Of a stretch of 34,412 nt of DNA, positions 6,999-22,142 are shown piece after piece. The notes beneath the pieces were generated by a model. That model was not told where the DNA came from, ran no database searches, and saw only the letters and a program-made list of their open reading frames with translations. A program made the translations under genes and the position numbers. The stretch spans positions 1-34,412 of the forward strand of contig JAFTHM010000086.1 in NCBI GenBank assembly GCA_017457425.1. The letters run 5' to 3'. Source of the DNA: Alphaproteobacteria bacterium (GTDB taxonomy: Bacteria > Pseudomonadota > Alphaproteobacteria > CAAHEQ01 > UBA3637). Numbering within the stretch: the first letter of the stretch is position 1; each line of letters begins with the position of its first letter.

Positions 6999-7176
6999 AA
7001 GGCATGTATTATGCCCCGAGGTTTAGAAGCCTCTTGAAAGTTGTCTGAGTGCAGACGTAAAAAACTACCTTTTTGCCATTGGCAGGAAGGTAGTAGAATA
7101 AGGGTTTTATACCCCAATATACTACACTATTCTTTCAATAGCTTCTAACTTCCTGCCACTTTTAAAGTGGTTTTTG
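6999..7176 (+). ncRNA. Structured pseudoknotted RNA, copy A (unrecognised family)
   Basis: Hand folding gives this order. P1: GGCAT/ATGCC (7001-7005/7011-7015). P2: GAGG/CCTC (7018-7021/7030-7033). Its loop strand TTAGAAGC (7023-7030) pairs as a pseudoknot with GCTTCTAA (7141-7148). Closing helix P3: TGGCAGGAAG with CTTCCTGCCA. Inside it are P4 GTAGTA/TACTAC, a small GGGT/ACCC hairpin, and CTATT/AATAG. The terminator palindrome CCACTTTTAAAGTGG (7156-7170) plus T run follows. The same plan, with compensatory changes, occurs at 15638-15828 and on the minus strand at 21888-22086. The RNA ends about 30 nt before the prepilin-like gene on the same strand and has no other gene between, so it could be a terminating leader (attenuator) or a free small RNA. 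I do not recognise it as a known family. Confidence 0.75.
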
Positions 7177-7207
7177 TTTTAACGTAATGGACAAGAAAGG
7201 GAATTTT

Positions 7208-8401
7208 ATGACGATGAAACATTATGACTCCGGTCGTTCTATGGTTGAAATGCTGGGAACATTGGCGATTATCGGTGTTCTATCTGTTGGCGCTATCGCA
7301 GGATACAGCTACGGAATGGATAAATACCGTGCCAATCAAACGATTAATGATGTGATGCTGTTGGGGGTGGATGTAATTACACAAGCCTCACGAACTGCCG
7401 GAATGCCGAACTTATCTGCCGATTGGGGAACTAAAACAACAGCCGGATATGATTTTACGGTTGTACCAAACCCCTCAGATGATACGCAATACGGCCTTCA
7501 AATCAGCGGGGTTCCCGCCCGAGTGTGTAAAATGGTGGGTGATGCGTTAAAACCCATGGCCTCAGTTTATGTAAATGATGATGAACATATCACCGAAGAA
7601 GACCCGTGCGACGAATCGGACAACAACACCATGGAATTTTATTTTGACGTTTCCGCCACTTCGGGAGACCAATGTAAAATTGATGCCGATTGTGGAACCG
7701 ATAAATATTGCGATATGGGATTATGCTTTAGTGGGAATCACCCCGAAGTAATGGCCAATATCGTGGGTGGAACGTGTACCTCGGATGCTGATTGTAATAA
7801 GGGGTGGACAGGAACGAATTGCGCGTATTGTGATGCGACCTATGGATGTGTGGAAAAGTTTAATAATCACAATAAAGCGTGCACCTTAACGGATGGCAAT
7901 ATCGCCGGTAAATGTGCTGGTGGCCAATGTTTACCAACAGGTTGTACCTACGATACGAATAAATGCAGCGATAAAGAATATTGCGCCAGTCCGAACAATA
8001 GCTGTACCGAAGTCTTCCAAAGTGGAGAAACAGGTATGTGTGTGCCTATCAATACTACCTTTTCTAAAATCTCGGGAACCGAGTATTACATCTCCAATGG
8101 TCTGCTCAGTTGGTGGGATGCGGATGCCGCGTGTAAATCCATTAAAAAAGAGTTGTTGAGTGTATCTGACCTTGTTACGGAAAAGGATGGTAGTGCTTGG
8201 AAAGGAGATAATGGCGTTCACACCACAACGGCTCTTGCCAATGAATTATATAGTAAAGGATGGAACAGTACTGGGTATCCGTTCATCTGGACGAAAAACT
8301 GGCTAAATGATTCTTGCTACGCGTACGGCGTGTACCTGCGTAATGGTAACGTCTACAACGGCAATCGCTACGCCGAGGGCTACTACGTAGTCTGTAAGTA
8401 G
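7208..8401 (+). CDS. Prepilin-like Cys-rich surface protein with C-terminal C-type-lectin-like domain
   Basis: The start is the ATG at 7208 after AAAGGGAATTTT; an in-frame ATG at 7187 lacks a ribosome site. The 397-residue product begins MTMKHYDSGRSMVEMLGTLA. Cleavage after the Gly of SGRSMVE would give a type IV pilin-like mature N-terminus with Glu at position 5 and a ~20-residue hydrophobic helix. The middle (~residues 140-280) is cysteine-rich with EGF-like spacing (CKIDADCGTDKYCDMGLC, CTSDADCNKGWTGTNCAYC). The last ~100 residues (GTEYYISNGLLSWWDADAAC... to ...YYVVCK) look like a C-type-lectin fold. The final ~30 codons are GC-richer and heavy in TAC, AAC and GGC codons, unlike the neighbours. 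Pseudopilin or adhesive surface protein is the best description; the ligand is unknown. Confidence 0.75.
   Translation: MTMKHYDSGRSMVEMLGTLAIIGVLSVGAIAGYSYGMDKYRANQTINDVMLLGVDVITQASRTAGMPNLSADWGTKTTAGYDFTVVPNPSDDTQYGLQISGVPARVCKMVGDALKPMASVYVNDDEHITEEDPCDESDNNTMEFYFDVSATSGDQCKIDADCGTDKYCDMGLCFSGNHPEVMANIVGGTCTSDADCNKGWTGTNCAYCDATYGCVEKFNNHNKACTLTDGNIAGKCAGGQCLPTGCTYDTNKCSDKEYCASPNNSCTEVFQSGETGMCVPINTTFSKISGTEYYISNGLLSWWDADAACKSIKKELLSVSDLVTEKDGSAWKGDNGVHTTTALANELYSKGWNSTGYPFIWTKNWLNDSCYAYGVYLRNGNVYNGNRYAEGYYVVCK
8311..8401 (+). other. Candidate variable repeat (VR) at the 3' end of the prepilin-like gene
   Basis: The codons after NDS encode CYAYGVYLRNGNVYNGNRYAEGYYVVCK. Of the 27 codons from Cys to the last Cys, 17 end in C, and all seven Tyr are TAC. 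Codons of NNC type are what adenine-specific mutagenesis of an AAC-rich template repeat produces in diversity-generating retroelements, whose targets usually carry a C-terminal C-type-lectin fold. No reverse transcriptase or template repeat is in the window, so this rests on composition and position only. Confidence 0.35.
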
Positions 8402-15560: not shown

Positions 15561-15589
15561 AAACGGAAGGCTGTTCCTTCCGTTTTTTT
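15561..15589 (+). terminator. Intrinsic terminator of folA-thyA
   Basis: AAACGGAAGG (15561-15570) pairs perfectly with CCTTCCGTTT (15576-15585) across CTGTT, followed by a T run. The last bases overlap the 59-bp segment shared with the copy C region. Confidence 0.9.
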
Positions 15590-15639
15590 ACATAAAAAAG
15601 GATAGACTTTTAAAAAATTGTATGCTAACCTATATATGC
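15581..15639 (+). repeat. 59-bp identical upstream segment of structured RNA copies B and C
   Basis: This segment runs from CGTTTTTTTACATAAAAAAG to the TATATATGC at the 5' edge of copy B. It is identical over 59 bp to minus-strand 22142-22084, upstream of copy C. Identity stops exactly where the first RNA hairpin begins. It contains promoter-like sequence: TAGACT (15603-15608), a 17-bp spacer, then TAACCT (15626-15631), or the overlapping TATATA at 15631. Conservation far above that of the RNA itself points to recent duplication or gene conversion, or selection on the promoter. Confidence 0.8.
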
Positions 15640-15828
15640 ATTCGGCATGATACCGAATGTGGAGGGCTCAAAACCTCCTCAAAGACGCCCTATCGCATGG
15701 GGCTTCCTCCAATTATGCGACTTCCGTCATGGCTGGAAGGTGGTAGAATAGCCCTAGGTCAATATACCACACTATTTCTTTGAGTAGTTTTGAGCTTCCA
15801 GCCACTCTTTTTTTAAGTGTGGCCTTTT
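15638..15828 (+). ncRNA. Structured pseudoknotted RNA, copy B (unrecognised family)
   Basis: P1: CATTCGG/CCGAATG (15639-15645/15653-15659). P2: GGAGG/CCTCC (15661-15665/15674-15678). Its 8-nt loop GCTCAAAA (15666-15673) pairs perfectly with TTTTGAGC (15788-15795). A variable arm follows with TCGCAT/ATGCGA. Closing helix P3: TGGCTGGAAG (15730-15739) with CTTCCAGCCA (15795-15804). Inside lie P4 GTGGTA/TACCAC (15740-15745/15765-15770) and an ACTA/TAGT hairpin. A terminator hairpin of CCACTCTT and AAGTGTGG type and a T run end it. Unlike copies A and C, no gene follows on the same strand, so this copy should act as a free RNA if it acts at all. No protein-coding frame with a ribosome site is present. 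Confidence 0.78.
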
Positions 15829-15832
15829 TCTT

Positions 15833-21662: not shown

Positions 21663-21863
21663 TTATTTCATATTAATTTCTTGCGTATAACAATTTTCGG
21701 TAGTGATGACCCCTAATCCCCATTTGTATTCAATTTGGCATTTTTCAATGACCATGTGATTTCTGTCTCCGGAAATATTGGTAACAAACGGAGCGGACCG
21801 TGTATAGGTTGATGAACACGCCGAACACATTAAACCCAAAACAATTAAATTGACATATTTCAT
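21663..21863 (-). CDS. Very small lipoprotein
   Basis: Starting at the ATG at 21863, preceded by AAAGAAAGGATACTTCAA, the product has 66 residues. An in-frame ATG at 21902 lies inside the terminator of RNA copy C and is rejected. It has a lipoprotein signal, MKYVNLIVLGLMCSAC, with lipobox CSAC. The mature ~50 residues include two more Cys (IEKCQIEYKW, TENCYTQEINMK). No function can be given. It is the first gene after structured RNA copy C on the same strand, only ~25 nt after the RNA terminator, and no separate promoter is apparent. Its expression may depend on read-through of that terminator. Confidence 0.75.
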   Translation of the reverse strand: MKYVNLIVLGLMCSACSSTYTRSAPFVTNISGDRNHMVIEKCQIEYKWGLGVITTENCYTQEINMK

Positions 21864-21887: not shown

Positions 21888-22086
21888 AAAAGAAAGCCAC
21901 ACTTAAAAAAAGAGTGGCTGGAAGCTCAAACCTATTATCACAAATAGTGCGGTGTATTCGTCCAAAGGATTTATTTCACCGCCTTCCAACCACGTGGAAA
22001 ACGCACCTTTGTTTTTAATCCTCGTGCGTAAGGATATTGTGATATGAGGGTTTGAGTCCCCAACGCCCGAGAATTCCTCAGACGCA
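21888..22086 (-). ncRNA. Structured pseudoknotted RNA, copy C (unrecognised family)
   Basis: On the minus strand, P1 is CGTCTGAG/CTCGGGCG (22084-22077/22071-22064, two G-U). P2 is a GGG/CCC hairpin whose loop side CTCAAACC (22056-22049) pairs perfectly with GGTTTGAG (21932-21925). A variable arm has ACGCAC/GTGCGT. Closing helix P3 is GTGGTTGGAAG (21993-21983) with CTTCCAGCCAC (21924-21914), eleven pairs with one G-U. P4 is GCGGTG/CACCGC; CTATT/AATAG follows. The terminator is nearly identical to that of copy B. Almost every helix differs in sequence from copies A and B yet stays paired, which is strong evidence for a conserved RNA fold. It lies between the CbpA-like gene and the small lipoprotein gene, all on the minus strand. 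Confidence 0.78.
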
Positions 22087-22142
22087 TATATAGGTTAGCA
22101 TACAATTTTTTAAAAGTCTATCCTTTTTTATGTAAAAAAACG
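22084..22142 (-). repeat. 59-bp segment identical to 15581-15639
   Basis: This is the upstream segment of RNA copy C, identical to the one before copy B, and ends at the first base pairs of P1. It begins immediately past the stop codon of the CbpA-like gene. Its T-rich start has no hairpin of its own here. Confidence 0.8.

Follow-up and report, generated by a model that had tools for sequence, protein, structure and literature searches.

Three RNA copies in the window

The window, i.e., the whole 34,412-nt stretch of alphaproteobacterial DNA analyzed here, carries three copies (c1, c2, and c3) of a pseudoknotted RNA, the parts of which are listed in Table 1. A same-strand gene lies directly downstream of c1 and of c3, a point absent from the original prediction. 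At c2, the RNA, its arms, and the downstream sequence are conserved in a sister species (locus L166). Copies c2 and c3 share ∼50 nt of upstream sequence (ACATAAAAAAGGATAGACTTTTAAAAAATTGTATGCTAACCTATATATGC; window 15580–15638 and 22086–22140 on the minus strand), and c2-like and c3-like copies stand in tandem on contig C22; the arrangement in the window therefore looks like a rearranged tandem.

Table 1. Parts of the three RNA copies and the adjoining genes, in window coordinates
Feature	Position	Strand	Remarks
Copy c1, full RNA with terminator	6999..7176	+	Covariance model 149 bits; MFE z −6.0
c1 hairpin P1 (GGCAT/ATGCC)	7001..7015	+	Counterpart is first hairpin of phage P1 c4-a1b1
c1 hairpin P2 (GAGG/CCTC)	7018..7033	+	Loop holds a1 arm 7023–7030 (TTAGAAGC)
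c1 b1 arm (TTGAAAG)	7034..7040	+	5′ strand of P5
c1 strand CTACCTTTTTGCC	7065..7077	+	Able to pair with 7081–7093 (P3alt), which excludes P3; MFE fold; P3alt conserved
c1 P3 5′ strand (GGCAGGAAG)	7081..7089	+	Start of C4-like domain
c1 P4 (GTAGTA/TACTAC) plus loop	7090..7125	+	6/6 pairs covarying
c1 b′ arm (CTTTCAA)	7132..7138	+	
c1 a′ arm (GCTTCTAA)	7141..7148	+	
c1 P3 3′ strand (CTTCCTGCC)	7149..7157	+	
c1 intrinsic terminator (CCACTTT/AAAGTGG + U tract)	7156..7175	+	5′ arm shared with P3
Pilin-like gene (GRSMVEMLGTLAIIGVLS...) adjoining c1 3′ side	7187..8401	+	Motif read directly; no Pfam match
Copy c2, full RNA	15638..15830	+	Without same-strand gene directly downstream
c2 a1 arm (GCTCAAAA)	15666..15673	+	Inside P2 loop
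c2 b1 arm (CTCAAAGA)	15678..15685	+	
c2 C4-like domain (P3, P4, b′ 15777–15784, a′ 15788–15795)	15731..15803	+	RF02221 match 15731–15811, E 4e-6
c2 terminator	15801..15830	+	Shares bases with P3 3′ strand
Copy c3, full RNA with terminator	21889..22085	−	Covariance model 145 bits
c3 a1 arm (CTCAAACC)	22049..22056	−	
c3 b1 arm (TATCACAA)	22037..22044	−	
c3 C4-like domain (P3, P4, b′ 21936–21943, a′ 21925–21932)	21916..21991	−	
c3 terminator	21896..21918	−	Shares bases with P3
Small lipoprotein gene (MKYVNLIVLGLMCSACSSTY...) downstream of c3	21663..21863	−	

All helix strands proposed for the three RNAs in the original prediction were found as exact matches at 6999–7176 (+), 15638–15828 (+), and 21888–22086 (−). 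The MFE z-scores of c1, c2, and c3 are −6.0, −6.1, and −5.8, with no shuffle as good (0/200), and a degenerate 21-nt core pattern matches at these copies only, 0.08 matches being expected by chance. For covariation, 13 copies taken from this genome were aligned with MAFFT on sequence alone. The compensatory change predicted for the helices was observed in 28/43 base pairs, where both partners differ (mean of 17.5 in shuffles, 0/500), and 86% of cells are paired, compared with 38%–51% when the partners are slid. The pseudoknot (PK), which corresponds to the pairing of arm a1 with arm a′, is intact in all cells (100% paired), and 6/6 of its pairs covary. P4 also covaries at 6/6 pairs and is 92% paired; P2 and P3 are both 100% paired. 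Together with the further copies in the genome, the z-scores and the covariation bear out the idea of a selected, pseudoknotted RNA present in several copies. Missing from the original prediction were a second long-range helix, P5, formed by b1 and b′ just inside PK and 7–12 bp long in most copies (TTGAAAG/CTTTCAA, CTCAAAGA/TCTTTGAG, and TATCACAA/TTGTGATA in the window); P3alt, in which the 5′ strand of P3 pairs with a strand upstream of it; and the overlap between P3 and the terminator stem.

Genomic copies and the genes behind them

The search that had been proposed, with a covariance model against the genome of this gut bacterium (a 1.34-Mb draft in 154 contigs) and its relatives, returned 41 copies in the genome. 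The sRNA-Xcc1 model adds a weaker second subfamily, giving ∼47 copies in total, in keeping with the expectation of many per genome. Among relatives, the RNA is present in 40/43 genomes of the order, at 1 to 43 copies each, and in 20 genomes among 289 drawn from the class; the named carriers are MAGs of gut and environmental Alphaproteobacteria. Members of the second subfamily (L087, L088, and L091–L096) have the P2 loop G(C)GTAGAAACCC and the terminator end GTGGGTTTTG, are nearer to RF02221 and C4 than to the main model, and likewise precede genes for pilin-like and secreted proteins. In another alphaproteobacterium, two tandem copies ∼285 bp apart (L106:1216–1664, minus strand) lie upstream of a glutamyl-tRNA synthetase-like gene.

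A start codon follows the terminator within 60 nt in 42 of the 44 full-length genome copies (median gap 27 nt), and a Shine-Dalgarno-like sequence is found between the two. A gap of ∼27 nt is too short to hold a promoter of the gene's own, which implies that transcription of the gene either passes through the RNA or begins within it. A crude, simple-rule classifier scored the products of 41/42 downstream genes as apparently exported (26 pilin-like proteins, 12 proteins with signal peptides, and 3 lipoproteins), compared with 7/30 for the other genes of the window. Genes in this position in other genera encode, among others, outer-membrane beta-barrels, lipoproteins, secreted proteins, pilin-like proteins, and glycosyltransferases. 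Some pilin-like genes downstream of the RNA (those at L021:1715–1950, L027, and L089) carry an insert between the start and the GRSMVE motif; the insert has the look of an in-frame translation of a palindromic repeat (SSLGLTQGSIM...MDSRLCGNDRG). A family of small secreted proteins of ∼130–145 aa (CANGAGTVITGAVTGHKYC...NWWNAxxWCDA) is encoded after many copies (L023, L030, L038, L081, L087, L092, and L093); it appears C-type-lectin-like by eye, and the two members that were compared with Pfam, those at L023 and L030, gave no match.

The exceptions to the leader position are c2, with no gene directly downstream, and its near-twin L032, behind which a further copy of the RNA lies. Since c2 is kept gene-less in the sister species, at least some copies are not simple leaders. 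No function was proposed in the original prediction; for most copies, position and structure point to a cis-acting leader or attenuator rather than a free-standing RNA. Promoter-like boxes are found upstream of the RNA, with a weak signal.

Relation to C4 and sRNA-Xcc1

At curated thresholds, Rfam models matched only a tRNA in the window, with no match to c4-2 (RF02944) or isrK (RF01394). The original prediction of an unrecognized family thus holds insofar as no Rfam family reaches its threshold in the three RNAs; it is qualified by matches of RF02221 (sRNA-Xcc1) to the 3′ half below cut-off and by a layout shared with C4. RF02221 aligns with the 3′ half of c2 over the full 87-nt model at 40.7 bits (E 4e-6; cut-off 53 bits) and has 14 sub-cut-off matches in the genome. 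The C4 model (RF01695) has three genome matches, all on copies of the RNA, the best at 26 bits (cut-off 45).

The sequence of the phage P1 C4 operon, the record of which annotates a1, b1, C4, a2, and b2 in that order, maps part for part onto the layout of the window RNAs. In phage P1 immI (C4, RF01695; c4-a1b1, RF03163), as here, a hairpin is followed by a1 in a hairpin loop, b1, a further hairpin, and the C4 domain, and within that domain both have a closing stem, an inner hairpin, b′ in a loop, a′, and an end in CCAC. Upstream a1 and b1 complementary to a′ and b′ were found in 36/36 copies, with 15.1 nt matched by a copy's own arms versus 7.3 nt by those of other loci (0/5000). The closing stem, the inner hairpin, the hairpin with b′ in its loop, and then a′ are likewise present; the b′ hairpin (CTATT/AATAG, CAATA/TATTG, and CCATT/AATGG) was read off the sequences without a formal count. 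Judged by sequence and layout, the RNA family is a rebuilt descendant or relative of the phage immunity RNA C4.

The true RF02221 loci of Pseudomonadota share the same 5′ half in 26/26 cases, with 15.2 nt matched by their own arms versus 9.2 nt by those of other loci. Intermediates matched by both the covariance model and RF02221 bridge the two groups. RF02221 (loci L124–L153) seems limited to the 3′ half; the RNA as a whole would extend upstream to include a1/b1 and a terminator-like hairpin. Rfam does not place RF02221 in the C4 clan, CL00128. At many of these loci, a copy of a/b is present at the ribosome-binding site (12.1 nt versus 7.8 nt for the arms of other loci, 0/5000 permutations); here an exact-match test was used, as the duplex-energy test is blurred by G+C content. 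The genes that follow include those for proteins of phage antirepressor type (Bro-N, KilA-N, P22_AR_N, and Rha) and for SymE. A terminator stands between RNA and gene at only 1/26 RF02221 loci, and a terminator-like hairpin lies in the 5′ half at 22/26; in the alphaproteobacterial family, a terminator was found at the 3′ end of the RNA in 43/44 copies of this genome and 52/56 copies from other Alphaproteobacteria. The two groups thus differ in that RF02221 loci keep the copy at the ribosome-binding site, the 5′-half hairpin, and adjoining genes of antirepressor type or SymE.

In phages, the released C4 RNA blocks translation at a downstream ribosome-binding site. The same action on the genes studied here would accord with the layout seen at RF02221 loci. 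At the alphaproteobacterial loci, however, no a/b copy was found at the ribosome-binding site (own arms 9.3 nt versus 8.9 nt, 223/5000 permutations), an absence that is not absolute on these values. A search of the ribosome-binding site and of the 160 nt downstream gave no convincing target of the arms, and the terminator stands between the RNA and the gene. This canonical mode of action is very improbable for the family. Compared with phage P1 C4, the window family is chromosomal, has ∼47 copies per genome, precedes surface-protein genes, lacks a2/b2 at the ribosome-binding site, has a terminator after the C4-like domain, and has the alternative hairpin P3alt.

Other C4-type RNAs offer further comparisons. 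The Group 1 C4-like sRNAs of Acinetobacter baumannii are also chromosomal, multicopy, and C4 derived, with a variable a′ region; they are processed sRNAs with unknown targets (PMC5320573). The window family differs in that most copies precede surface genes, have a putative attenuator, and conserve the pairing of a1/b1. RNase P processing has been described for C4-type RNAs (PMC5320573), and sRNA-Xcc1 was detected as a discrete RNA of ∼88–100 nt by Northern blot and RACE, 88 nt by RACE (PMC2996969); we infer that its published 5′ end coincides with the expected C4-type RNase P cut site. c4-2 and isrK share the setting of phage antirepressors, and isrK overlaps the a1/b1 part of phage P1. An integron cassette, an idea taken from the sRNA-Xcc1 literature, was rejected on the dispersed position of the copies before surface genes.

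Pairing codes, terminator, and the proposed switch

The 36 copies that could be parsed have 36 distinct (a,b) pairs, and arms pair with their own partners at −21 kcal/mol versus −10 kcal/mol with those of other copies. In 11 RNA pairs between sister species with the code kept, 0/342 arm positions have changed versus 28/1744 elsewhere (Fisher p 0.009), and in three near-identical pairs, 20/103 arm positions have changed versus 5/469 elsewhere (p 6e-12) with pairing retained; both sets were chosen after seeing the data, and the p-values describe these sets rather than genome-wide tests. The arms are thus either held or replaced as a block. Such block replacement resembles the change of the a′ region that sets immunity specificity in phages P1 and P7 (PMC5320573). 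Uniqueness of the codes and their replacement as blocks would be expected if cross-talk between copies were harmful.

The constancy of the arms in the 11 orthologous pairs bears on the suggestion that the copies are a spreading repeat element or leftovers of decayed prophages with no host function. Copy numbers ranging from 0 to 43 among relatives and the phage linkage of the C4 family would suit such an origin, which is nevertheless extremely unlikely given the strong compensatory change, the unchanged arms, and the constant spacing to genes for exported proteins; in addition, six matches to a 17-nt core motif in a scan of viral contigs included no real copy.

The 3′ end of the RNA has the arrangement of an attenuator, with a terminator before the gene that would compete with an antiterminator stem through the P3 overlap and the conserved P3alt. 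When P3 takes the shared bases, the terminator weakens from −9.2 to −2.4 kcal/mol on average. P3alt has a mean length of 8.7 and 8.2 bp in the alphaproteobacterial copies versus ∼5.2 bp in shuffled sequences; at RF02221 loci, it is not conserved (6.4 versus 5.9 bp shuffled). In relatives outside the genus, the P1 hairpin loop pairs with the terminator loop (0/5000), and the paired sequences vary (TGATG/CATCA, TGACG/CGTCA, and TTGGTGT/ACACCAA). P3alt, P3, and the terminator exclude one another in series, which, together with the pairing between the two loops, gives the RNA an attenuator-like character. In nested folds, with pseudoknot energy left out, forcing P3 costs ∼13 kcal/mol, and the terminator state is always favored.

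These features, deduced from sequence comparison, suggest that the copies are probably chromosomal C4-type leader RNAs that have turned into transcription attenuators. Two target mimics occupy the 5′ half, namely a1, held in the loop of a hairpin, and b1; the arms a′ and b′ of the C4-like 3′ half pair with them. The RNA would be transcribed together with the downstream gene. In the putative default state, a1:a′, b1:b′, and P3alt would be in place, leaving the terminator free and the gene switched off; closure of the C4-like domain through P3 would take bases from the terminator and allow readthrough. If released by RNase P as in the phage, the C4-like domain may act in trans on no transcripts but those of the same code. 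Such specificity would account for the private code of each locus and for the wholesale replacement of codes.

The leader position, the conserved unpaired bases, and the antiterminator/terminator alternative would also be expected of a ligand-binding riboswitch for surface genes that resembles C4 by convergence. A riboswitch is nonetheless quite unlikely in view of the part-for-part match to the phage P1 operon and the significant RF02221 matches, and the arms vary as an address code does, unlike an aptamer core.

The copies may instead be free-standing antisense RNAs that act in trans on other mRNAs, in the style of C4 and sRNA-Xcc1, the terminator simply ending the sRNA and the position near surface genes reflecting linkage through duplication. 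The discrete sRNA-Xcc1 transcript, the conservation of the orphan c2, and the promoter-like boxes favor this explanation. Against it, for 42/44 downstream genes the gap, 27 nt in the median, is too short to hold a promoter, and no a2/b2 copy was found at downstream sites. Bipartite code matches outside the RNAs, in the DNA scanned, numbered 107, below the 161–246 obtained with shuffled codes, and in the whole genome the full c2 code was found only in its own arms. On balance, trans action on other mRNAs is unlikely.

An extension of the attenuator, an RNA-addressed memory, is considered rather doubtful. Each of the ∼47 surface genes with its private (a,b) code would then be an independent self-sustaining switch, and after duplication a code would be exchanged as a whole, in the manner of phage heteroimmunity. 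The released C4-like domain would pair only with a1/b1 of the next transcript from the same locus, and this pairing would keep that transcript from the terminated form and so sustain its own expression.

Through this RNA family, a phage immunity RNA is connected with the probable control of surface proteins in gut Alphaproteobacteria. The family also places the poorly understood sRNA-Xcc1 family in a function-bearing context, since the 87-nt RF02221 of Rfam covers the 3′ half of an RNA that is longer and has a target mimic built in. With pairing codes specific to each locus, the cell could turn its surface genes on or off one by one, and it becomes a testable question whether base-pairing identity alone enables paralogous leader RNAs to control dozens of such genes separately. 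Were the memory to prove true, surface variation would be governed by independent switches, each sustaining itself.
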